Translations under genes and position numbers: made by a program | Shown here: positions 12,095 to 21,389 of the stretch, in pieces | Numbering within the stretch: position 1 is the first letter of the stretch | Layout of the letters: every line of letters begins with the position of its first letter | Notes under the pieces: model-generated | The model's input: the letters and a program-made list of their open reading frames with translations, nothing else | What the model was told of the DNA's origin: nothing | Databases searched by the model: none | Assembly (NCBI RefSeq): GCF_027922005.1 | Contig: NZ_BSEV01000017.1 | Location: 1-64,000, forward strand | Direction: 5' to 3' | Source: Streptosporangium carneum | Lineage (GTDB): Bacteria; Actinomycetota; Actinomycetes; Streptosporangiales; Streptosporangiaceae | DNA: 64,000 nt

Positions 12095-12379
12095 ATGGAG
12101 GCAGGCGAACTCGACTGGAGCCGGACGCCGGGCGAGCGGTGGGAGTTTCACTGGAACCACCGGCTCCGAGCCTGGCTCGACGGCCTGACCGACGACGAGT
12201 GCTTCCGGTCACCGGCGCCGGACGCCTGGAGCGTACGGCCGCGCGGCGGCTCGACGGTGCCCGTGGCCGATCCGGTGCCGCGCATCCGGCACGAGCTGAT
12301 CCACCGTCCGTCCGAGGTCTGCCTGCTGCGCGGCCTCTACCCGCACACGAAACCCGCCACGAACGGAGCAACCCGATGA
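12095..12379 (+). pseudogene. DinB-family protein with an internal deletion
   Basis: 94 codons. The N-terminal half (FHWNHRLRAWLDGLTDDECF ending in WSVRPRGGSTVPV) matches the beginning of actinomycete DinB_2 proteins. The next residues (RHELIHRPSEVCLLRGLYPH) match their C-terminal helix. About 80-100 central residues, including two of the usual metal-ligand histidine regions, are absent with the frame kept. The stop overlaps the VOC start (ATGA). I infer a non-functional remnant kept in frame, perhaps because it couples translation of the next gene. Confidence 0.65.
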
Positions 12380-12837
12380 GCCGCCACATCCAGGTCACCT
12401 TCGACGCCCACGACCCGCGGGCGCTGTCGTCCTTCTGGCGCGACGTGCTGGGCTACGTCCACCCCGGGCCGCCCGGAGTCGATCTGCCCGAGGACGCCGA
12501 CCCGCTGGCCGCGTGGGACGACTTCCTCGCGCAGGCCGGCGTACCGCTGGAGCAGCGCAACACGAGATCGGCCATCGAGGACCCGGACGGGCACGGCCCA
12601 CGGCTGTTCTTCCAGCAGGTGCCGGAGGACAAGGCCGCCAAGAACCGCGTCCACCTCGACGTCCGCGCGGCTCCCGGACTGCGGGGAGAGGAAAGGATGG
12701 CGGCGCTGGAGGCCGAGTGCGACCGGCTCGTCGCACTGGGAGCGAAGCGGGTGCGTCGCCACGAGCCCGCTCCCCCGATGAGCGCCGGCTTCATCGTGAT
12801 GACCGACCCCGAGGGCAACGAGTTCTGCCTGGACTGA
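12376..12837 (+). CDS. VOC-fold (glyoxalase-like) protein
   Basis: 153 residues. It starts with the standard VOC opening (IQVTFDAHDPRALSSFWRDVLGY), then DPDGHGPRLFFQQVPEDK, NRVHLDV and a closing MTDPEGNEFCLD. This is the beta-alpha-beta-beta-beta repeat of glyoxalase/bleomycin-resistance proteins of the glyoxalase_6 type. Substrate unknown. It overlaps the stop of the truncated DinB gene. It ends 51 bases before the target duplication of the Tn3-like element. Confidence 0.85.
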   Translation: MSRHIQVTFDAHDPRALSSFWRDVLGYVHPGPPGVDLPEDADPLAAWDDFLAQAGVPLEQRNTRSAIEDPDGHGPRLFFQQVPEDKAAKNRVHLDVRAAPGLRGEERMAALEAECDRLVALGAKRVRRHEPAPPMSAGFIVMTDPEGNEFCLD

Positions 12838-12888
12838 CGTGGCTCAGCCGCGGGAGTCCCGGCAGTTGTCACGCCTTACGACGCTGAG

Positions 12889-12893
12889 GAATC
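12889..12893. repeat. Left target-site duplication GAATC
   Basis: The five bases directly outside the left inverted end are identical to the five directly outside the right end (18365-18369). Tn3-family insertion characteristically makes 5-bp duplications. Confidence 0.85.
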
Positions 12894-12931
12894 GGGGCCT
12901 GAGGAACATTGGAACCGGATCGTGCGCCACG
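12894..12931 (+). repeat. Left terminal inverted repeat of the Tn3-like element
   Basis: It begins GGGG, then CCTGAGGAACAT, and ends with GAACCGGATCGTGCGC. Compared with the right end read inward, 31 of the first 34 positions agree. GGGG ends and a length of about 38 bases are typical of the Tn3 family. Confidence 0.85.
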
Positions 12932-13020
12932 CGTTTGTCCTGGTGAACATCGGTTCGACCGTCCATGATCGCTACCGGAAGCCTTCGAGGGTCTTGTCGT
13001 GGACCTATGGGAGGTTCGCG

Positions 13021-13370
13021 GTGCCGGTCGAGTTCTCGTCCGACGAGCAGGCGGCGGAGTTCGCCTCGTTTCAGGGGCCGCCAACGCGGGCTCAGCTGGA
13101 GAAGTGCTTCTTCCTCGATGACGCCGACCGTGAGACGACCGAGTCCAGACGCAGAGATCACAATCGGCTTGGATTCGCTGTCCAGATCGGTGTGGCCCGG
13201 TTCCTGCGGCGGTTTCCGCCTGATACTCGCCAGGTCCCAGCCCAGGTCGGGACTACCCCGCTGAGCAGCTGAACATCACCGATCCGTCGCGCATCAAGCT
13301 GTACGGCCAGCGTGATGGGACCGCGCGTACCCACACCGGGGAGATCGAGAAGGCCGGCGGCTGGATCGAC
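13021..13370 (+). pseudogene. Tn3-family transposase, N-terminal remnant with frameshift
   Basis: From a GTG preceded by GGGAGG, the frame encodes PVEFSSDEQAAEFASFQGPP...FFLDDADRE...DHNRLGFAVQIG..RFL, the DUF4158 start of Tn3 transposases. It stops at 13272. The match continues in another frame from about 13254 (YPAEQLNITDPSRIKLYGQR), showing a frameshift, and is lost at the hairpin near 13350. About 115 of the usual roughly 1000 residues remain, so the gene cannot be active. Confidence 0.85.
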
Positions 13371-13400
13371 CTCGGCGAAGTCGATCCAGCCGCCGGCCTT
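13350..13400. repeat. Perfect 21-bp inverted repeat with 9-base loop
   Basis: Arms at 13350-13370 and 13380-13400 (inner part GGCCGGCGGCTGGATCGA and its complement) are exact over 21 bases. The hairpin lies where the transposase similarity ends and the YceI remnant region starts. It has no T-tract. It looks like a copy-back/template-switch scar or a junction structure, not a terminator. Confidence 0.7.
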
Positions 13401-13441
13401 TGGGGCCGACACGGTCCCGCCGAGCGGCAGAGGCGTGGCCA

Positions 13442-13473
13442 CCTCCAGCCCTACCTGGTCGTAGGGCTGGAGG
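13442..13473. repeat. Perfect 13-bp inverted repeat with 6-base loop
   Basis: CCTCCAGCCCTAC at 13442-13454 pairs exactly with 13461-13473. It is the second exact hairpin within 125 bases, in the decayed part of the YceI gene. Confidence 0.65.
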
Positions 13474-13482
13474 CGCTGCCAA

Positions 13483-13644
13483 ATCGGCTGCGGTGACGAT
13501 GTGCCCGCCGAATCGGGGGAAGCGTCCGGTGATCCGGCTGACCAGCATGTGCCGTACGGCGAAGCCGACACTGGAGTTGGCCGGATCGATCGTCCACTCG
13601 CCGGGTTCCGGCACCGGCGGCGAGGGCAGAGGCGGGGTGGCCAT
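13483..13644 (-). pseudogene. YceI-family protein, N-terminal remnant
   Basis: The first 54 codons encode VPEPGEWTIDPANSSVGFAV and VSRITGRFPRFGGHI, the conserved start of YceI lipid-binding/polyprenol-binding domain proteins. The similarity then stops and the frame enters the hairpin-rich stretch. A complete YceI protein has about 170-190 residues. Probably a passenger gene broken by rearrangement inside the transposon. Confidence 0.7.
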
Positions 13645-13962
13645 CAGGCGGTCGCCTCAAACCCGGCCAGGGATTCCTCGAACAGGTGGGCCAGGAGCGC
13701 CCAGGCGAGAACCAGGTCGAGCAGCCGGGCGCCCGCCATCTGCTCACGGAGCACACCAGCCGGACGCAACCGGCGAAGCTGCTGGTCGTCTTCGTCCTCA
13801 CCATGGGAGACAGGCTCAAGGTCGACGATCCGCCAAGGTGAGGCTATCGGCTGGGCGCGACAGCGCGGGTTTGATCAGCGCGTCCCCCGCATCAAGTACC
13901 ACCCCTGGCATGCGACCAAGGTCGGACATCGAAACCTGACGACCAGATGAAAAGCTGGACCG
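13645..13962. other. No intact gene; possible coding debris
   Basis: Short frames such as one ending PAKLLVVFVLTMGDRLKVDD (about 13735-13842, plus strand) look coding-like but have no start and no family I can name. The stretch just before 13963 may carry the promoter of the HD-domain gene. Confidence 0.3.
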
Positions 13963-14553
13963 ATGTTTCCGGAGACTCCCGCTGCCGCGGCGGCGCTGTC
14001 GGTGGCCACCCGTTTCTGCTCGCCCGCGCTGTTCAACCACTGCGTCCGCTCCTACCTGTGGGGAACGATGTACGGAACAGCGCACGGGATCGCCTTCGAT
14101 GACGAGCTCTACTACGTTTCGGCGCTGCTCCACGACATCGGGCTGACGGAGGCCTTCGACAGCCATAGGCTGCCGTTCGAGGAGGCGGGAGGGCAGCTGG
14201 CCTGGGTCTTCGGCATGGTGGCCGGCTGGCCGGCGGAGCGGGCCGCCAGGGTCACCGAGATCATCATCCTGCACATGCGCGACGACGTGTCCCCGGCCGC
14301 CGACCCCGAGTCCCACCTACTGCAGGTCGCCACAAGCTGGGAGGTGGTCGGACGGCGGCCGGAGGAGTTCTCACCGGACGCCAGGGCGGAGATACTCGCC
14401 CGTTATCCTCGGTGGGGATTCGGCGCGGAGTTCCTGGCGTGCTTCGAGGACCAGGCGAGGCGCAAACCGGACAGCGCCGCCGCCGCATCGGTCAGGAACG
14501 ATGTCGCGGGGCGGATCGCCGCCAACCCCCTCGAAAGCTGCCCACCCGCCTGA
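13963..14553 (+). CDS. HD-domain protein, cyanamide-hydratase/YpgQ-like
   Basis: 196 residues. An early histidine (FNHCVRSYLWG, His26) and the paired LLHDIGL (His57-Asp58) are followed by a later histidine region in VTEIIILHMRDDV. This is the HD metal-binding pattern in the layout of small single-domain HD hydrolases near cyanamide hydratase. Reaction unknown. It sits alone inside the Tn3-like element, with its own start 14 bases after a GAAAAG-like site. The last 25 residues look like an unstructured tail. Confidence 0.78.
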   Translation: MFPETPAAAAALSVATRFCSPALFNHCVRSYLWGTMYGTAHGIAFDDELYYVSALLHDIGLTEAFDSHRLPFEEAGGQLAWVFGMVAGWPAERAARVTEIIILHMRDDVSPAADPESHLLQVATSWEVVGRRPEEFSPDARAEILARYPRWGFGAEFLACFEDQARRKPDSAAAASVRNDVAGRIAANPLESCPPA

Positions 14554-14758
14554 CCTCCAAGCCTGCGGACTCCGCCGTCAGCCCTGCTTGGTGCAACAGA
14601 GTCGACGCGCAGCGCGGCTGCGCCAGGGGTCAGCCGATGTGCCAACGCGGCATTCCGCACAGGTCGTCGGCGGAGGCGACCTGCGTGGTCGGCAACTCGC
14701 GCGTCTCCGATTCGGTCAGGTGGCGCAGCAGTAGCATCACCAGGTGCGTCATCGGTAG

Positions 14759-16657
14759 TTGCCGGCCTCGGAGCGCTCGCGTTGTCGCACCGACGGGTGG
14801 CCGCCGTCCTGTTCTGACTGGGGCCCGGCTGACCGGCCCGGGCGGTCCAATAAGATCATCTGCATCGTAGCCTTACTCCGGGCCGCCGTCGCCCGCTACC
14901 GCTTCGGGCGTCCGGCCGCTGCCGCCGTCGCGCTCTACCTGACTGCCGCCGCCGTCGCCGCCGGGTACGACGGCGGGCGCTGGTTCGTCGTCGTCGCGAC
15001 GGCGGGTTTCTGGCCGTGGAACGACGGGGCGTGGCTCCTGCCCGCGGCGATCGGCGTGCTCAACGCGTGGGCGCTGTGGCAGATCCTGCGCGGCCCGGCC
15101 TCGCCGCGCGCCGGGGCGCTGCCGCGTGATGTGGTGTGGCTGCGGCGCCTGCTCTACGCGGACGTGGCCGGCGACTTGCTGCTCTGGGAACTCCTCGACG
15201 ACGTGTCCGACATCGCGGAGTACGTTGTGCGCTGGGCCGTGTGGGCCGCCACCGTATTCCTGCTGGTGCGGGCCCTGGCCGGGGTCTCGGCCCGGTTCCG
15301 GATCATCGCCCTCGGGCTCGGCCTGACCGGGGTTCTGGCCGCGGCGCTGCGGCCGTTCGCCGAGGTCCCGCTGCTGACGGCGTCACTCCTGGTGGCGATG
15401 GCGACCCTCGGCTGCAAGGCGATGATCATCGCCGGGCAGGGACGCGACGGGCGGTTCAGCGCCGTCACGGTCGCCATCGGCTGGACCGCCCTGCTGGTCC
15501 CGCAGGTCTACCCGCTGCTCCAGATCGGACGGGTGACGTTCGACGGCCTGTCGCTCGCGGTGCACGCGCTCGACGGGCTGCTCGTCGTGTGGGCGGCACG
15601 CACCGCGCATGAGCTCGCCGCGCCCGGCCCGGGCGCCGCGGCGCCCGGAACCGGGCGGACGCCGCGGCTGCTCGCCGCCGCCGTCGTGCTCGTGCTGCCG
15701 ATGGCGGTCGTCGGCGCCGAGGAGGACGCCCGGCTCACCTACACGGCCGCGGACGAGGGCTGCCACGACCGACTCCGGCCTGCGGCCGGCCTCGGGCCTG
15801 AGGAGCGGCGGCGGTCGTTCCTCTGCCTGGCCAGGAGCGAGACCTTCGCCGCGGGCACGATGTTCCCCGAACGGCTGGCCGACCAGCGCGTCCTCGCCTA
15901 CGGCGCGCGGCTGTGCGCGCTGCCCGGTGACCAGGAACGGCACGCGCTGCACAAACGGGCCGGCGGCATGGGGGACGCCATCGAGCTGACCGCGGCTCTG
16001 GAGTACCTGTGCCCCGGCATCGTCGCCCGGCAGACCGCCGACGCGCACCGCCGTCAGGCCGAACGCGACCTGCAGGAGGCCAGGTGGAAGGCCGAGGCCA
16101 ACGCCCGGTGCGCCGACCCGTGGCCCAAGGTGCGGGCCAGGCGGCAGGGCACGGCCGCGTACATGCTGTTTGAAGGGGGTGGCTACGCCGTCTTCGACGA
16201 CCGCGACGACAGCGCAGGCGATCCTGGGGACATCTACGGCGGCGACGGCGAGGCCGCCGACATCTTCGAGGCTATCGAGGACGGGTTCATCGACGCCGCA
16301 GGCAGTAGCGCCGCCATCGTGACTTCCGAGGAGAACGCGGCGATGTGCCTGACGGTCAAGGCGTTCGACAGCGCTCCGCCGCTCCGGCTCACCGGCTGGG
16401 ACCAGGTGGTCGAGGTGGGCATCGCCAGCCGCAGCGGCCGCCTGGTCGTGCCGACCTACCCCGAGGGCGGTGACAGCGGGGCGGCCGGGCCGCTGCCTGA
16501 CCTGGCCGTCGCCGGTCCAGGCCCCTACCGCCTGCGCGTCCACGCCCGCACGCTGCCATGGGACGAGAACGACCCCGATGCGCCGCTGGAGGAGCACCTG
16601 CTCGTCGTCTATCCCGGCCGCTCGACGGACAAGGTCGTCTACCGCCCGCGCGGCTGA
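14759..16657 (+). CDS. Multi-pass membrane protein with large C-terminal extracytoplasmic domain
   Basis: Up to 632 codons, all in strong actinomycete codon bias. The N-terminal half has about eight hydrophobic segments (for example WFVVVATAGFWPWNDGAWLL and VPLLTASLLVAMATLGCKAM), and another appears near residue 300 (LLAAAVVLVLPMAVVGAEED). About 310 soluble residues follow, with an acidic stretch and six or more cysteines. I recognise no family. The only possible upstream start is a TTG at 14759, as no ATG or GTG occurs in frame before about 15049, so the true start is uncertain or the 5' end is lost. It is a passenger of the transposon. Confidence 0.6.
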   Translation: MPASERSRCRTDGWPPSCSDWGPADRPGRSNKIICIVALLRAAVARYRFGRPAAAAVALYLTAAAVAAGYDGGRWFVVVATAGFWPWNDGAWLLPAAIGVLNAWALWQILRGPASPRAGALPRDVVWLRRLLYADVAGDLLLWELLDDVSDIAEYVVRWAVWAATVFLLVRALAGVSARFRIIALGLGLTGVLAAALRPFAEVPLLTASLLVAMATLGCKAMIIAGQGRDGRFSAVTVAIGWTALLVPQVYPLLQIGRVTFDGLSLAVHALDGLLVVWAARTAHELAAPGPGAAAPGTGRTPRLLAAAVVLVLPMAVVGAEEDARLTYTAADEGCHDRLRPAAGLGPEERRRSFLCLARSETFAAGTMFPERLADQRVLAYGARLCALPGDQERHALHKRAGGMGDAIELTAALEYLCPGIVARQTADAHRRQAERDLQEARWKAEANARCADPWPKVRARRQGTAAYMLFEGGGYAVFDDRDDSAGDPGDIYGGDGEAADIFEAIEDGFIDAAGSSAAIVTSEENAAMCLTVKAFDSAPPLRLTGWDQVVEVGIASRSGRLVVPTYPEGGDSGAAGPLPDLAVAGPGPYRLRVHARTLPWDENDPDAPLEEHLLVVYPGRSTDKVVYRPRG

Positions 16658-16702
16658 CCTCGCGGAGTGCGTGTCTTCAGCTCGAACGAGGCTTTTCGAT
16701 AA

Positions 16703-16722
16703 GCGCTGAGCCGCAGGTCAGC
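16703..16722 (+). repeat. 20-bp sequence repeated inverted at 18315-18334
   Basis: GCGCTGAGCCGCAGGTCAGC occurs here and, reversed, directly inside the right transposon end. The first eight bases belong to the inner part of the terminal repeat. It covers the stop codon of the MBL-fold gene. It brackets the MBL/XRE pair as an inner module and may be a truncated extra copy of the transposon end. Confidence 0.7.
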
Positions 16723-17536
16723 CGATCGGTGGTGCGAGGTATTCCAGCGCATAACCGTCGCCGGAGGGGGTTACGCGGGCGATGCCGGGTGAGTCGAGGT
16801 GGGCGCCGGCTACGAAGTGGTGTGGTTGGGTCAGTTGTTCGAGGAGGGCCGCTCGCGCGGCGCGGGCCTGGGACTGGTTGCCGTCGAGCTCCCAGGACAC
16901 GTTCGGCTGATCGAATTGGAGCGTGGGAACGTGAACGGTGTCACCCCAGGCGAGAAGGCGGCCGGTGCCGCTCCTGACCTCGTAGACGGTGTGACCGGGG
17001 GTGTGGCCCGGTGTCGGGATCGCGGTGGTCCAGTCGTTGATCGCGACCTTCTCCGACACGGGTACGACCCGGTCGCGGATCGGCTCGAGCCGCCCGGTGA
17101 ACACCGAGGTGTCGCCCGCGCCGATCCACACGCGCTCGAGTTTGGTGAACGCCTCTGAACCGTCCGGCGCGATCAGGCCGCTCACGTGGTCTTCGTGCTT
17201 GTGGGTGATGGCCACATCGGTGACATGCGCGCGGTCGATTCCCGCTTCGTCGAGCGCGTCGTAGATCAATCCCATGGTGGGGTCGTGCCAGGCGTTGGAC
17301 GCGCCGGTGTCGATGAGAACCGACCGCGTGCCGTCGGTGACGAAAAAGGCGTTGACCGACAGCCGCAAGTTGTCGCCGGCCAGCGGGACGGCGGCCGGCA
17401 GCTCATCGAGCGTGCGCCCATCCTCGTCGCGGAGCCGTGTCGGCGGCATGTCGATGTACCCGTCTCGCAACGAGACCACCTGCAGATCGCCGAATTCGAA
17501 CGTGGCATGGTGCTGGCCACTCGAGATCAAACGCAT
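16718..17536 (-). CDS. MBL-fold metallohydrolase (lactonase-like)
   Basis: 272 residues with the metallo-beta-lactamase motif THKHEDH at residues 111-117 (HxHxDH), then PTPGHTPGH, an aspartate in LAWGDTVH and a C-terminal histidine in VAGAHLDS: a full dinuclear zinc set. It resembles AidC/AHL-lactonase-like and other small hydrolases; the substrate is not determined. GGAGG precedes the chosen ATG. It is divergent from an XRE-cupin regulator across a dyad-rich gap and is probably controlled by it. Confidence 0.87.
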   Translation of the reverse strand: MRLISSGQHHATFEFGDLQVVSLRDGYIDMPPTRLRDEDGRTLDELPAAVPLAGDNLRLSVNAFFVTDGTRSVLIDTGASNAWHDPTMGLIYDALDEAGIDRAHVTDVAITHKHEDHVSGLIAPDGSEAFTKLERVWIGAGDTSVFTGRLEPIRDRVVPVSEKVAINDWTTAIPTPGHTPGHTVYEVRSGTGRLLAWGDTVHVPTLQFDQPNVSWELDGNQSQARAARAALLEQLTQPHHFVAGAHLDSPGIARVTPSGDGYALEYLAPPIG

Positions 17537-17573
17537 GGAACCTCCGTCGTGTTGGCGCACATCGCGCGTCTTC

Positions 17574-17593
17574 GATAGAAGACTCTATCTTCT
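17574..17593. promoter_or_regulatory. Overlapping dyads between the MBL and XRE-cupin genes
   Basis: GATAG-AAGACT-CTATC (17574-17589) and AGAAGA-CTCTA-TCTTCT (17577-17593) overlap in an A/T-rich spot 38 bases from the MBL start and 56 from the regulator start. They are good operator candidates for the XRE-type protein. Confidence 0.5.
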
Positions 17594-17648
17594 TTAGGAG
17601 AAACCCTACACTGTGGGCGAGCGAGGTACCCATCAATCGAGGAGCACG

Positions 17649-18257
17649 GTGGTCGAGCAAGACGGAAACGCGGCCGGACTACAGCACGGTGACGACCTGG
17701 CCGGCGCGTTCGGCGGTAACGTGCGGCGACGTCGCGAGGAGGCGGGCCTGACGCTGGAGCAGTTGTCCACACAGTCGTCGGTCAGCCGGGCGATGCTGTC
17801 CAAGGTCGAACGCGGTGAGAAGAGCCCGACGATCGGCGTCGCGTCCAGGATCGCCCACGCGCTCGACGCGTCGCTCTCGGACCTGATCGGTGCGCCGGCC
17901 GCTGCCGCGTCTGGTGTGGCCATTGTCATGCGCAAGAACGATCGCCCCGTTTTCCGTGACCCGGAAACCGGCTTCGAGCGGCACATGGTGTCAGCGGCCC
18001 CGGGCACGGGAGGAGCCGAGATGGTCGTCCACTACCTCCCCGCGCAGGTCTCCACCGGGCTGCTGCCCGCGTATCCGCCGGGTACGGAGAAACAACTCGT
18101 GGTACTCGAAGGCACCCTCACCGTCGCGATCGGCGGGATCAGCGAGACCCTGCACACAGGCGACTCCCTGTTCTTCCAGGCCGACGCGGACCACGGCTTC
18201 GCCAACCGAACGAACGCTCCCTGCGAATACATCATGGTCATCTCGCGCAGAACCTGA
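17649..18257 (+). CDS. XRE-family regulator with C-terminal cupin
   Basis: 202 residues. An XRE helix-turn-helix lies at about residues 20-75 (VRRRREEAGLTLEQLSTQSS...SRAMLSKVERGEKSPTIGVA), and a cupin_2 barrel at about 110-200 (GTEKQLVVLEGTLTVAIGG, then GDSLFFQADADHGFAN). This architecture belongs to PuuR/SutR-like repressors that sense small metabolites. The GTG at 17649 has GAGGAG upstream; another GTG 36 bases earlier is possible. It is divergent from the MBL hydrolase inside the transposon, so the two form a portable regulator-enzyme module. Confidence 0.85.
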   Translation: MVEQDGNAAGLQHGDDLAGAFGGNVRRRREEAGLTLEQLSTQSSVSRAMLSKVERGEKSPTIGVASRIAHALDASLSDLIGAPAAAASGVAIVMRKNDRPVFRDPETGFERHMVSAAPGTGGAEMVVHYLPAQVSTGLLPAYPPGTEKQLVVLEGTLTVAIGGISETLHTGDSLFFQADADHGFANRTNAPCEYIMVISRRT

Positions 18258-18314
18258 TCGGCCGCAGCTTGCGGGCCTGGACAAAGCCGGCTGGGGCATC
18301 GCCCCCAGCACTCA

Positions 18315-18334
18315 GCTGACCTGCGGCTCAGCGC
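18315..18334 (-). repeat. Inverted copy of the 16703-16722 repeat
   Basis: An exact 20-base inverted match to 16703-16722. It overlaps the innermost eight bases of the right terminal repeat. Confidence 0.7.
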
Positions 18335-18364
18335 ACGATCCGGTTCTGATGTTCCTCAGACCCC
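18327..18364 (-). repeat. Right terminal inverted repeat of the Tn3-like element
   Basis: Read inward from the outer end: GGGG, TCTGAGGAACAT, then CAGAACCGGATCGTGCGC. It differs from the left end at positions 5, 17 and 18 within the first 34. Confidence 0.85.
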
Positions 18365-18369
18365 GAATC
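18365..18369. repeat. Right target-site duplication GAATC
   Basis: Identical to the five bases outside the left end of the element. Confidence 0.85.
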
Positions 18370-18416
18370 CAGCGGAGGCGACCAAACGCCCAGGGCCGGT
18401 CGCACGACAGTGAAGT

Positions 18417-18698
18417 GTGACGCTGACTTCCCCCGAGCACGACACATGGGCGGCGCTGACCGCTCTGGCTGCGGGAGCCCTGACCTGGCAGTCGACCGCG
18501 CTGATGGCGGGCTTGATGACGGCCCGGACCGCGATGGGCCTGCTCGCCGAGTGGCAGACGCGACGCACCCTGGTCGCCCTCGCCCGCACAGCCCCCGCGG
18601 GGCTGATCACCATCCGTCGGAACGCCTCACGAGAGCAGACCTTGCGGCTGGTCTGGGGAGCCGACTCGGACCAGCGCCGACGACAGTCAAGGACATGA
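18417..18698 (+). CDS. Small hypothetical protein upstream of a sigma factor
   Basis: 93 codons from a GTG. There is a weakly hydrophobic helix-rich N-terminal half (WAALTALAAGALTWQSTALM) and a basic C-terminal end rich in arginine. No family is recognised. It ends one base before the sigma-factor start, so the two are likely co-transcribed. Coding bias is acceptable, but the short length leaves room for doubt. Confidence 0.5.
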   Translation: MTLTSPEHDTWAALTALAAGALTWQSTALMAGLMTARTAMGLLAEWQTRRTLVALARTAPAGLITIRRNASREQTLRLVWGADSDQRRRQSRT

Positions 18699-18699
18699 C

Positions 18700-19278
18700 G
18701 TGGAGCCCCCCGAGCCCAGGCAGCGACTCACCAAGGAGCAAGTCGAACAGGTGGAGGACCTCTACCGGCAGGAGGCCGAAAATCTGTACAAGCGCGCCTG
18801 CTCGATCTCACCGGGCCGTACGTCCGAGGCGCGGGATCTGGTGCACACGACCTTTCACGAGGTGATCCGCAATTGGCATGAGATCAGCCGATACGACCCT
18901 GCCAGGCGCAGAAGGTGGCTGTTCCGGGTGCTCAGTAACAAGGCGATCGACCTGGGGAGGAAGCAGAGAATGGTCGACCCGGCCGCCGACCTCCCCCACC
19001 CGTGCTCTCGGCCCGACGACACCGGCGAGCGTGCCGAGCTCGCGATCGCCCTGGCGAGCTGTTGGAGGGTGATCGAAGCGATGCCGCCGACACGGCGAAG
19101 GGTCGCGGCCCTGATCTGGGGCGAGTCGTGGACCACCGAGCGCGTCGCCGAGCATCTCGGGCTGGCGCCGAGCACTGTCCGCGGTCACCTACGGGAGGCA
19201 CGCAGGCAACTGAGAGCCACCGTCGGCCATCTGGTGCCGTTCATCGACGACGAAGAAGGACAGGAGCCTGCCCCATGA
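18700..19278 (+). CDS. ECF-type RNA polymerase sigma factor
   Basis: 192 residues. Region 2 is seen in LYRQEAENLYKRACSI and ARDLVHTTFHEVIRNW with RRRRWLFRVLSNKAIDLGRK. Region 4 is RRRVAALIWGESWTTERVAE followed by HLGLAPSTVRGHLREARRQL. Spacing is that of sigma-70 family ECF factors. AAGGAC lies before the GTG. No anti-sigma factor follows: the next gene, overlapping by ATGA, is a STAND ATPase, suggesting control by that large protein or co-regulated output. That link is an inference. Confidence 0.88.
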   Translation: MEPPEPRQRLTKEQVEQVEDLYRQEAENLYKRACSISPGRTSEARDLVHTTFHEVIRNWHEISRYDPARRRRWLFRVLSNKAIDLGRKQRMVDPAADLPHPCSRPDDTGERAELAIALASCWRVIEAMPPTRRRVAALIWGESWTTERVAEHLGLAPSTVRGHLREARRQLRATVGHLVPFIDDEEGQEPAP

Positions 19279-21389
19279 ACCACGAGGAGGAGCCGATTCC
19301 GCTCACGTTCGCCGAGGTCTACCGGCGCGCCCGCGCCGCCGGAGCGCTTCCGCCCTTCGATCTCCAGCGCGGCCTGGACGACCTGAGGGCGTGGATCGAC
19401 CGGGAGGTCGACATCGTGGAGACGGGGGATCTCGCCCCTGCCGCAGTGCGAGGCCCACAGGTGGAGCTCCGAGGACGCCGCGACCTGCTGGAGGAGCTGA
19501 TGACGCTGGCGCGCCGTCCCGGAGACGGCCCCGCCGTGCTCGTCGGGGTGGGCGGCGCGGGCAAGTCCGCACTGGCCGAGGCCCTGACCGCGCGGGCGCG
19601 GAGCCGGGAGCGGCAGACGTGGTGGGTCCCCGCCGCCGACCTGGCCGGGTTCTCCGCGGGCTTGGCCGAGGTGGCGCGGGAACTAGGCGGGTCCCCCACC
19701 GACGTCGAATCGATCGCCAAGGGGGCGGCCGGCTCTCCGGACCGGCTCTGGCGCCTGCTGGAAAACGCGCCCCAGGAGTGGCTGCTCGTCCTCGACAACG
19801 CCGACAACCCCTGGGTGCTCGCCGCGACGGACTCGCCGGCGGGGGTGCAGGACGGCCTAGGCTGGGCGCGCGCGTCGCGGCGCGGCCTGGTCGTGGTGAC
19901 CAGCCGGGAGACCGACCCGCGCATGTGGGGAGCGGCGCGGCTCTTCACGGTCGACCGCCTGAGCATGACCGACGCCGCCCAGGTCCTGCGCGATCTCGCA
20001 CCGGAGGCGGGGGACGAGGCCGAGGCCCGGGCTCTGGCACGCCGTCTCGACGGGCTCCCGCTCACCCTCCACCTGGCCGGGACCTACCTGGGCTCCGAGG
20101 CCGCGCAGTGGCCGACCTTCGCCGAATACGCCCACGCGCTCGGCAGCGCCGAGGGGACCGTGGTGTCCCGCACCGCGGAGATCTCCCTGGACGGACTGGC
20201 CCGCCACGGCATCCCCCAGGCCCGGAAGCTGCTGCGGCTGGCCAGCTGCTACGCCCCCACGTCGATTCCGACGCGCATCCTCTCCATGACCGGCATGGAG
20301 GAGGCTCTGGACGGGCTGAGAGGCGTAGGACTGATCCAGAAGAGTCCCGCCGAGATCACACTCCACCCCGTCGTCACCGACACCAACCGTGCCCACCTCG
20401 AGGGACCGGAGGTCCGGCACATCGCGGTCGAGCGACTGGTCGGCGCGTTGCGGGAGCTCCGCTTCGACCTGCCAGACCACTGGCCCCGGTACCGGATGCT
20501 CAGCCAGCACCTGCTGGCCCTGCTCGACAACGCCGCCGAACACGTGGACCGGGAGCACCTCGCCCTGCTCGTGGACGCCGCGGGCGTCACGGCCAGAGCC
20601 TTCATCGGCAGCGGCGCCGGGAGGGCCGCCGGCATCCTGTGCGAGGCCGCCCTGACACACCGTGCGGCGCTGGGCGAGGAGCATCCCGCGGCGCTGCGCG
20701 CGTGGCACTACCTCGCCTGGACGGTCGCCGACGGAGGGGATCCGGCCAGGGCAGAGGCCATCTACCGAAACATCCTCGACGTCCGGCTGCGCACGCTCGG
20801 AGAGTTTCACCCCGACACCATCTCCAGCCGCCACGAGTTCGCGTGGATCGCCACCTGCCTGGGCAGGTGGGCGGAGGCCGAGCGACGCTACCGGGACACC
20901 CTCCGCGACAGCCTGCGCTATCTGGGCCCCGACGAGCCCGCCACCCTCACCACGCATCACGAGCTGGCCTGGGCGATCGCCCGGCAGGGCCATCTCGCCG
21001 AGGCCCTGTCCGCCTTCCGGAACGTCCTGCGGGACCGGCGGCGCGTCCTCGGCAATGATCATCCCCAAACCCTGCAGACCGAGCATGACCTCGCCTGGAT
21101 CACCGCCAAGCAGGGCAAGTGGGCTGAAGCCGAGGCGATGTACCGCGACCTTCTCCGTCTGCGCCAGGTGCTCGAGACCGACCATCCCCACGTCCTGCTC
21201 GCCCGGCACGAGCTCGCGTGGACGATCGCCCGCCAAGGCCGCTGGTCCGAGGCGGAATCCGGCTACCGGAACGTCCTGGAGCTTCGCGGCCGGACCATGG
21301 GCGACGACCACCCCGAAACCGAGGCGACCCGGTGGGCACTGAGCGAGCTCCTGCAGGGCCGCGTCGTCGACGCCGACCATCTTGCCTGA
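19275..21389 (+). CDS. STAND/NB-ARC ATPase with C-terminal TPR repeats
   Basis: 704 residues. The NB-ARC P-loop GVGGAGKS is at residues 91-98, with Walker B in EWLLVLDNADNPW and the LARRLDGLPLTLHLAGTYLG (GLPL) motif. At least five TPR_10/12 units of about 42 residues follow, each with an LAW-x-x-A-x-x-G-x-x-x-E-A-E core followed by a DHPxT turn. This is the layout of signal-transduction STAND proteins. It has no DNA-binding or effector domain of its own, and its coupling to a sigma factor (ATGA overlap) suggests the output is transcriptional. Confidence 0.88.
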   Translation: MNHEEEPIPLTFAEVYRRARAAGALPPFDLQRGLDDLRAWIDREVDIVETGDLAPAAVRGPQVELRGRRDLLEELMTLARRPGDGPAVLVGVGGAGKSALAEALTARARSRERQTWWVPAADLAGFSAGLAEVARELGGSPTDVESIAKGAAGSPDRLWRLLENAPQEWLLVLDNADNPWVLAATDSPAGVQDGLGWARASRRGLVVVTSRETDPRMWGAARLFTVDRLSMTDAAQVLRDLAPEAGDEAEARALARRLDGLPLTLHLAGTYLGSEAAQWPTFAEYAHALGSAEGTVVSRTAEISLDGLARHGIPQARKLLRLASCYAPTSIPTRILSMTGMEEALDGLRGVGLIQKSPAEITLHPVVTDTNRAHLEGPEVRHIAVERLVGALRELRFDLPDHWPRYRMLSQHLLALLDNAAEHVDREHLALLVDAAGVTARAFIGSGAGRAAGILCEAALTHRAALGEEHPAALRAWHYLAWTVADGGDPARAEAIYRNILDVRLRTLGEFHPDTISSRHEFAWIATCLGRWAEAERRYRDTLRDSLRYLGPDEPATLTTHHELAWAIARQGHLAEALSAFRNVLRDRRRVLGNDHPQTLQTEHDLAWITAKQGKWAEAEAMYRDLLRLRQVLETDHPHVLLARHELAWTIARQGRWSEAESGYRNVLELRGRTMGDDHPETEATRWALSELLQGRVVDADHLA

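Follow-up and report, generated by a model that had tools for sequence, protein, structure and literature searches.

A probable remodelled Tn3-type shell with three passenger gene modules in the genome of Streptosporangium carneum

The DNA analysed here (the window) comprises the first 64,000 nucleotides of contig NZ_BSEV01000017.1 of Streptosporangium carneum (assembly GCF_027922005.1; genome G000, contig C17 in our numbering). It harbours a unit of 5,471 bp, end to end, which is bounded by inverted ends of the Tn3 type and flanked by a 5-bp target duplication, and which lacks a complete transposase gene. The unit is a genuine insertion of a known kind, though one that is probably unable to move by itself. 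Its interpretation as a remodelled and stranded Tn3 shell with working passenger genes, and not as an active transposon, is the one that we favour with moderate confidence. Elements of this kind are already in print as the Tn3-type mobile insertion cassettes (PMC6304161), to which the elements called TIMEs are related (PMC4133298). The first-pass annotation of the window had proposed a Tn3-family insertion with a target duplication and without a working transposase, and this proposal is supported by the ends, the repeated GAATC and the truncated tnpA described below.

The left 38-bp terminal inverted repeat, on the tnpA side, lies at 12894-12931 on the plus strand and was delimited by direct reading and by alignment to the lineage consensus GGGGTCTGAGGAACATCGGAACCGGATCGTGCGCTAAG, whereas the right one (18327-18364, minus strand) abuts the cargo directly, without tnpI or an inner palindrome. 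Both ends begin with GGGG (at 12894 and, on the opposite strand, at 18364). Over their first 34 positions the left end (GGGGCCTGAGGAACATTGGAACCGGATCGTGCGC, 12894-12927, plus strand) and the right end (GGGGTCTGAGGAACATCAGAACCGGATCGTGCGC, 18364-18331, minus strand) match at 31, as annotated, and over the full 38 bp at 32. Direct reading also placed GAATC on either side of the unit, at 12889-12893 and 18365-18369. Both the inverted GGGG ends of about 38 bp and the 5-bp duplication that are expected of a Tn3-family insertion are thus present. When 13 kb were shuffled eight times by a Markov model, inverted 34-mers agreed at no more than 25-28 of 34 positions, and the end pattern (up to 3 mismatches), which the window contains twice, never appeared in 100 shuffled sequences; a chance pairing of the ends was rejected on these grounds. 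The same two places are the only ones in the whole assembly (9,844,867 bases in 184 contigs). A composite bounded by two miniature elements was rejected as well, there being one inverted repeat on each side and two ends in the window.

Searches with the end pattern revealed 27 ends in 11 of 16 genomes of the same genus (up to 3 mismatches) and matches in 20 of 250 genomes of the family (up to 2 mismatches), with 16 ends, among the matches listed, lying outside the genus; "family" in all our genome counts is wider than the NCBI family. At the level of the class, 4 of 394 genomes were positive (up to 3 mismatches), all four of them in the family of the window, and no exact match of a slightly looser pattern was detected in viral contigs. 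Ends that are common and unpaired had been named in the annotation as evidence that would speak against a transposon, and this is partly what was found. While 34 of the 43 ends in the genus and family listings lack a counterpart with the same flanking bases in the sequence retrieved around them (a counterpart had to agree at 22-25 or more of 38 positions, and some of the sequences stopped at contig ends), the other nine belong to the present element and to four further shells with matching 5-bp flanks. The many partnerless ends could be taken to mean that two unrelated Tn3 ends, left by separate decayed insertions, came to face each other in the window by chance. Such a coincidence is barely credible, however, as no other such end was found in 9.84 Mb, the two point towards each other across 5.5 kb and are flanked by an identical pentanucleotide, and the GAATC on the right has its counterpart in the native sequence of relatives. 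In four family genomes which contain the right flank without the element (G112, G172, G096 and G141), the junction reads GAATT, GAATT, AAATC and AAATT, respectively, the pairwise flank match reaching the junction in G112, G096 and G141 and starting 10 nt past it in G172. For this reason GAATC is plausibly native to the right flank.

Inside the left end lies a remnant of tnpA (13021-13384, plus strand), which comprises roughly the first 120 codons and whose frame is broken near 13250. It was traced by similarity to the TnpA of L045, a locus of the same genus (genome G014) in which a 38/38 end stands directly upstream of a near-complete tnpA that has a frame break near codon 760. Codons 1-85 of the L045 gene are matched at 76% amino acid identity and, after the frame change, its codons 88-137 at 66%. 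The open reading frame (ORF) at 12922-13272 matches Pfam DUF4158 (E=3e-17), which in the full TnpA of locus L141 occurs together with DDE_Tnp_Tn3. The NCBIfam Tn3 transposase model also matches the remnant (E=8e-12), far under its cut-off, as is to be expected for a fragment. The domain match, the NCBIfam match and the frame break confirm the decayed transposase N-terminus that had been noticed at one end. A TnpA of about 1000 amino acids is missing, and since only about 120 of 1019 TnpA residues are matched, in a broken frame, the unit is to be classified as a Tn3 derivative and not as a complete member of the family. In a search with the junction region, DNA similarity to L123, L128 and L045 ends at about 13384; for most relatives it ends at or before this position, and for L045 it extends a few bases further. 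The break point itself coincides with a near-perfect palindrome or hairpin of 51 nt (13350-13400; 25-nt arms, 96%; 21-bp stem, z -8.2), which stands where tnpA would continue. It is followed by a patchwork of short gene fragments (13417-13834) with separate short matches in other genomes, and a minus-strand ORF at 13294-13644 contains a YceI-domain fragment according to Pfam. Neither the hairpin nor the YceI fragment had figured in the first-pass annotation.

The resolution functions of a Tn3 transposon were not detected either. None of the residues of two tnpI products (0 of 324 and 0 of 327) was matched in the element, no serine resolvase appeared among the Pfam matches of the main ORFs (the sole search made for resolvases other than TnpI), and no copy of the palindromic site typical of the relatives was found at up to 2 mismatches. 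Scanning of named genomes with the L045 TnpA yielded 46 loci. In eight of the relatives (L139-L143, L145, L161 and L274), tnpA is full or near-full and occupies one end, and a tyrosine-recombinase gene at the opposite end converges with it. L139, L141 and L274 are complete elements, with tnpA at one end and the tnpI-like recombinase gene opposite; the recombinase of L141 matches Pfam Phage_integrase. Frame changes were seen by tblastn in the tnpA of L140, L145 and L161. Paired ends with identical 5-bp flanks were found in L139, L140, L141, L161 and L274 (TTCCA in L274, genome G182), paired ends with non-identical flanks in L142, L143 and L145, and L169 is paired at 29 of 38 positions between its two ends. 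A relative with a full tnpA, the search for which had been proposed in the first-pass annotation, therefore does exist, but the ends of these elements differ, matching the lineage consensus at 28-34 of 38 positions. One of the closest likenesses is seen in the near-complete L140 of Nocardiopsis sp. CC223A (5,729 bp, duplication GTGTC, ends matching the consensus at 34 and 33 of 38), whose TnpA is 69% identical to that of L045 and whose tyrosine recombinase is 72% identical to that of L041. In contrast to the element in the window, L140 contains tnpI as well as a tnpA whose frame is broken near codon 710, and the cargo of the window was not found in it.

A complete element, L274 of G182, is also present in the broad family of the window. 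That complete elements appear outside the genus and gutted ones inside it is no rate, the former having been found through tnpA searches and the latter through end searches. When 338 family genomes were scanned with the L045 TnpA (three candidates scored per genome), the pieces at least 75% identical to its first 777 residues were, among the matches listed, partial copies in G023 (three), G078, G102 and G149, in addition to L045 itself. The piece in G149 is an internally deleted tnpA copy with a different end (30/38). Less similar open full-length TnpAs exist, for example in G182 (69%, open frame of 1021 amino acids). Among plasmids, 6 records, exclusively from Streptomyces, match the tnpA end of L045 at 70-71%, and relatives of the L041 recombinase occur in 136 records with exclusively actinomycete names, 135 of them below 60% identity, the records being counted by the recombinase alone, whether or not it lies within a Tn3 element.

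Alignment of the right ends of the relatives revealed, some 100 nt inwards from the tnpI end, a palindrome with the sequence CGCAGATA-N9-TATCTGCG. If up to 2 mismatches are allowed, it is located near the tnpI end in 7 of the 8 tnpI-bearing paired elements examined (present in L139, L140, L141, L142, L143, L161 and L274, absent from L145); in this tally L142, L143 and L145 are counted as paired, not as duplications, and L169, L275 and L277 are left out. Of the 12 unpaired ends inspected, 8 possess it, as do three of the other four tnpA-less shells (L040, L123 and L128, not L215), and it is found in neither L055 nor L278, both of which have no tnpI match. A single match with 3 mismatches inside the HD gene of the window compares with 0.1 expected by chance. 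The palindrome may be the site of the recombinase, in analogy to the irs core of Tn4430. The palindrome is also found, with 1 mismatch, in a TIME-like miniature of 234 bp in genome G011 (L048, 5988-6221), which has two inward-facing ends and unequal 5-bp flanks.

In Tn4430, as described in a 2020 survey, tnpI and tnpA are colinear and irs lies beside tnpI (PMC7157771); among the 190 Tn3 members of that survey, only three are stated there to encode TnpI. The relatives resemble Tn4430 in their TnpA family, in having a tyrosine recombinase as candidate resolvase and in the adjoining palindrome. The L141 TnpA matches that of Tn4430 (7qd8) at E=1e-98, both solved sequences found being those of Tn4430. 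They differ from it in the opposite, convergent arrangement of tnpA and tnpI (L139, L140, L141, L142, L143, L161 and L274), and the element in the window, unlike Tn4430, retains neither gene. Literature queries on Streptomyces TnpI-type elements, Streptosporangium Tn3 and actinobacterial non-autonomous Tn3 showed no title on the present lineage among those listed.

The space between the ends is occupied by three mutually unrelated modules, whose gene content agrees with the cargo annotated previously. Module 1 consists of an HD-domain hydrolase gene (13963-14553, plus strand; Pfam) within a block of DNA similarity at 13698-14607; its product is cyanamide-hydratase-like, with a score under the cut-off of that model. 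Module 2 is an ORF of 632 amino acids for a putative membrane protein with no Pfam match (14759-16657, plus strand), and since its similarity block (about 14835-16659) begins inside the ORF, the true start of the gene may lie downstream of 14759. Module 3 contains a gene for an MBL-fold hydrolase (16718-17560, minus strand), identified by Pfam and model matches and resembling AidB-type lactonases (151.6 bits, under the cut-off of 360) and organophosphorus hydrolase 4o98 (E=8e-40), together with a divergently oriented gene for an XRE-cupin regulator (17613-18257, plus strand; Pfam). Ratios of non-synonymous to synonymous substitution rates (dN/dS) amount to 0.26-0.39 for the HD gene (5 comparisons), 0.59-0.77 for the membrane-protein gene (4), 0.17-0.36 for the MBL gene (9) and 0.22-0.46 for the XRE-cupin gene (9), and the passenger genes look constrained.

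The cargo is no fixed unit, as its three modules sit apart in other genomes. When positions 13400-18320 were searched in 250 family genomes (two candidates scored per genome), matches were obtained in 106, in the form of three blocks at separate places, that of module 3 starting at 16716/16718 and ending at 18257-18334. G008, G152 and G207 contain both the HD and the MBL-XRE blocks, on different contigs. Copies of the MBL-XRE pair that are almost complete and 88-98% identical to it were seen in at least 16 of 249 other family genomes, with two candidates scored per genome; G104 and G219 contain parts of the pair. The surroundings of the pair (16718-18257) differ among the six loci compared, and a copy with 94% identity resides in an Embleya replicon of 5.7 Mb. 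The pair was also considered as a mobile unit in its own right and rejected: no element could be defined, and its borders are graded, not sharp.

The borders of the modules within the element give some indication of how they may have been joined. Behind the XRE gene, L118 and L119 (genomes G004 and G152) have a stretch containing GCTGACCTGCGGCTCAGCGC, after which their sequence takes a different course, whereas in the window the post-XRE stretch passes into the right end at GCGC; it also resembles the native right-end sequence GCAGGTCAGC. What lies behind the XRE gene in G004 and G152 is present a second time in the window as an inverted copy (16686-16722, minus strand; 16686-16725 for the longer stretch), which adjoins the MBL stop codon and shares TCAGC with the native MBL border, and part of it is included in an inverted repeat (16703-16732/18305-18334). 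The GCGC transition, the shared TCAGC and the likeness to the native right end suggest that the parts were joined at short or imperfect homology, with a fold-back at the tnpA side. With up to 3 mismatches, a 33-nt stretch of the inverted copy was found only once in the assembly, and the idea that it is a genomic repeat was rejected. The inverted repeat and the hairpin, in a draft of 184 contigs, might raise the suspicion that separate loci were joined by mis-assembly. We regard this as very unlikely, though, given the exact target duplication across 5.5 kb, the coherent ORFs and the single copy of the repeated flank stretch.

The history that would account for these features begins with a Tn3 transposon of the actinomycete lineage, having tnpA at one end and the tyrosine recombinase and palindrome at the other, which would have inserted upstream of the sigma-factor operon and duplicated GAATC. 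Its interior would then have been remodelled, tnpA being cut to about 120 codons and tnpI lost together with the palindrome, and three modules that are separate in other family members would have been brought between the ends through short-homology or fold-back junctions. The ends, the duplication and the relatives establish the Tn3 insertion with duplication of GAATC, and the losses of tnpA, tnpI and palindrome, like the separate occurrence of the modules, are likewise established; the manner of joining and the order of events are inferred. As the outer ends remain near the lineage consensus, a cognate TnpA from elsewhere might still act on them. With the tnpI site lost, a resulting cointegrate would presumably need homologous recombination for its resolution. 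It is because no cognate TnpA was found here and the tnpI site is gone that the shell is considered stranded.

In the own assembly 12 Tn3 transposase matches were examined, 8 of them on contig C4, and no cognate transposase for the ends in the window was found among them. The longest is 45-46% identical to the L045 TnpA and interrupted by one TGA stop, and shorter pieces are 54-59% identical to it over 121-219 residues. The longest transposase lies in a 6,471-bp Tn3-family element of its own (L055, contig C4, 3683-10153) with the duplication GATTT and different ends, which match the lineage consensus at 25 and 23 of 38 positions.

Alternatively, the unit may be a mobile insertion cassette that already contained its present cargo when a cognate TnpA, acting in trans, brought it to this site. 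This possibility, which we consider clearly the less likely one, is consistent with the perfect GAATC duplication and the near-consensus ends, and also with the existence of four more elements that lack a full tnpA, show matching duplications and differ in content. These are found in G001 (L040; 8,171 bp, GGAAT; hemerythrin, F420-dependent reductase, glycosyltransferase, hexapeptide transferase and TetR), G023 (3,199 bp, TGGAC; NUDIX), G078 (2,175 bp, GTCTC) and G009 (2,910 bp, GGATC; MFS and MarR), and match 0, 306, 314 and 0 of the 1019 tnpA residues, respectively; of the left end, the G001 shell retains a piece of about 148 bp that reaches roughly to codon 5. By domain matches, the segment 9305-11955 of L040 encodes a UDP-glycosyltransferase-like protein, a hexapeptide transferase and a TetR regulator, a trio that we assume could be an antibiotic-modifying set.

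Precedents with Tn3 ends are available from other bacteria. In Pseudomonas, Tn3-derived elements without a transposase gene were captured while transposing (PMC4133298), and the mobile insertion cassettes of Xanthomonas have Tn3-family ends without transposition enzymes (PMC6304161). The Xanthomonas cassettes share with the present element the long Tn3-type inverted repeats, the passenger genes, the lack of transposition enzymes and the dependence on a transposase from elsewhere; the element in the window differs in belonging to another Tn3 lineage and host and in keeping a tnpA remnant. With Tn3 ends and a duplication around passengers without transposition enzymes, it has the structure of a mobile insertion cassette. 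TIMEs and their derivatives are alike in their 38-bp Tn3 ends, 5-bp duplications, mosaic content and lack of a transposase gene (PMC4133298, PMC13367494). TIME-COMPs are bounded by two complete miniatures of about 250 bp, whereas the 5.5-kb, single-copy element described here has a single inverted repeat per side and no complete miniature at either boundary.

Against transposition with the present cargo stand several observations. Among the matches listed from 341 family genomes, not one extends across the tnpA/cargo junction, and none of the 37 plasmid records that match some part of 12850-18400 covers 80% of it, among the matches listed. The palindromic site beside tnpI is lost, no cognate TnpA was found in the assembly, and a patchwork of gene fragments adjoins the cargo. 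Likewise, no second copy of the element was found in the 341 family genomes, which sample species and not strains of the same species. The empty site foreseen in the first-pass annotation, in which the VOC gene would be joined to the sigma operon with one GAATC, was not encountered: in the 341 family genomes no listed genome joins the VOC flank to the sigma flank, apart from the two halves in G000. A transposable cargo unit, as initially imagined, is thus not borne out by the junction search, the search for an empty site, the missing palindrome and the lack of a cognate TnpA.

Certain points nevertheless weigh against a stranded shell. Intact duplications and few end mutations equally fit an insertion mobilised in trans with the cargo already aboard, and since the palindrome is retained in 3 of the 4 other shells, elements of this sort may be able to move. 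With its 184 contigs, the assembly might also lack the gene of a cognate transposase. The role proposed for the palindrome is inferred from its position and from Tn4430, and the pattern itself was derived from some of the sequences that were later scored with it. Moreover, the dN/dS values mostly record the history preceding capture.

The element sits just upstream of the sigma-factor operon, in which a small ORF, a sigma-70-type factor and a long ORF (by eye, the latter looks like an NB-ARC-TPR protein) form a module at 18417-21389. At least four family genomes contain the module, with 73-82% identity and next to unrelated sequence; within the genus its matches are only short and weak. On the left, the VOC gene (12376-12837) is present at 90-95% identity and near-full length in 49 of 340 other family genomes of many genera, with matches that stop near the border of the gene itself; it seems to be a single gene that spreads widely.

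The element illustrates how a Tn3 transposon becomes a cargo shell in a little-studied actinomycete family, and its relatives point to an actinomycete branch in which tnpA and the tyrosine recombinase occupy opposite ends. As a tentative and rather doubtful extension, Streptosporangiaceae might maintain a standing population of tnpA-less TnpI-type Tn3 shells serving as gene-capture cassettes, in which the ends and mostly the palindrome would be kept, tnpA would be exchanged for changing chromosomal modules, and rare complete elements would act in trans. If it is true that such shells move in trans, they would offer ordinary genes of the chromosome a way to become mobile.

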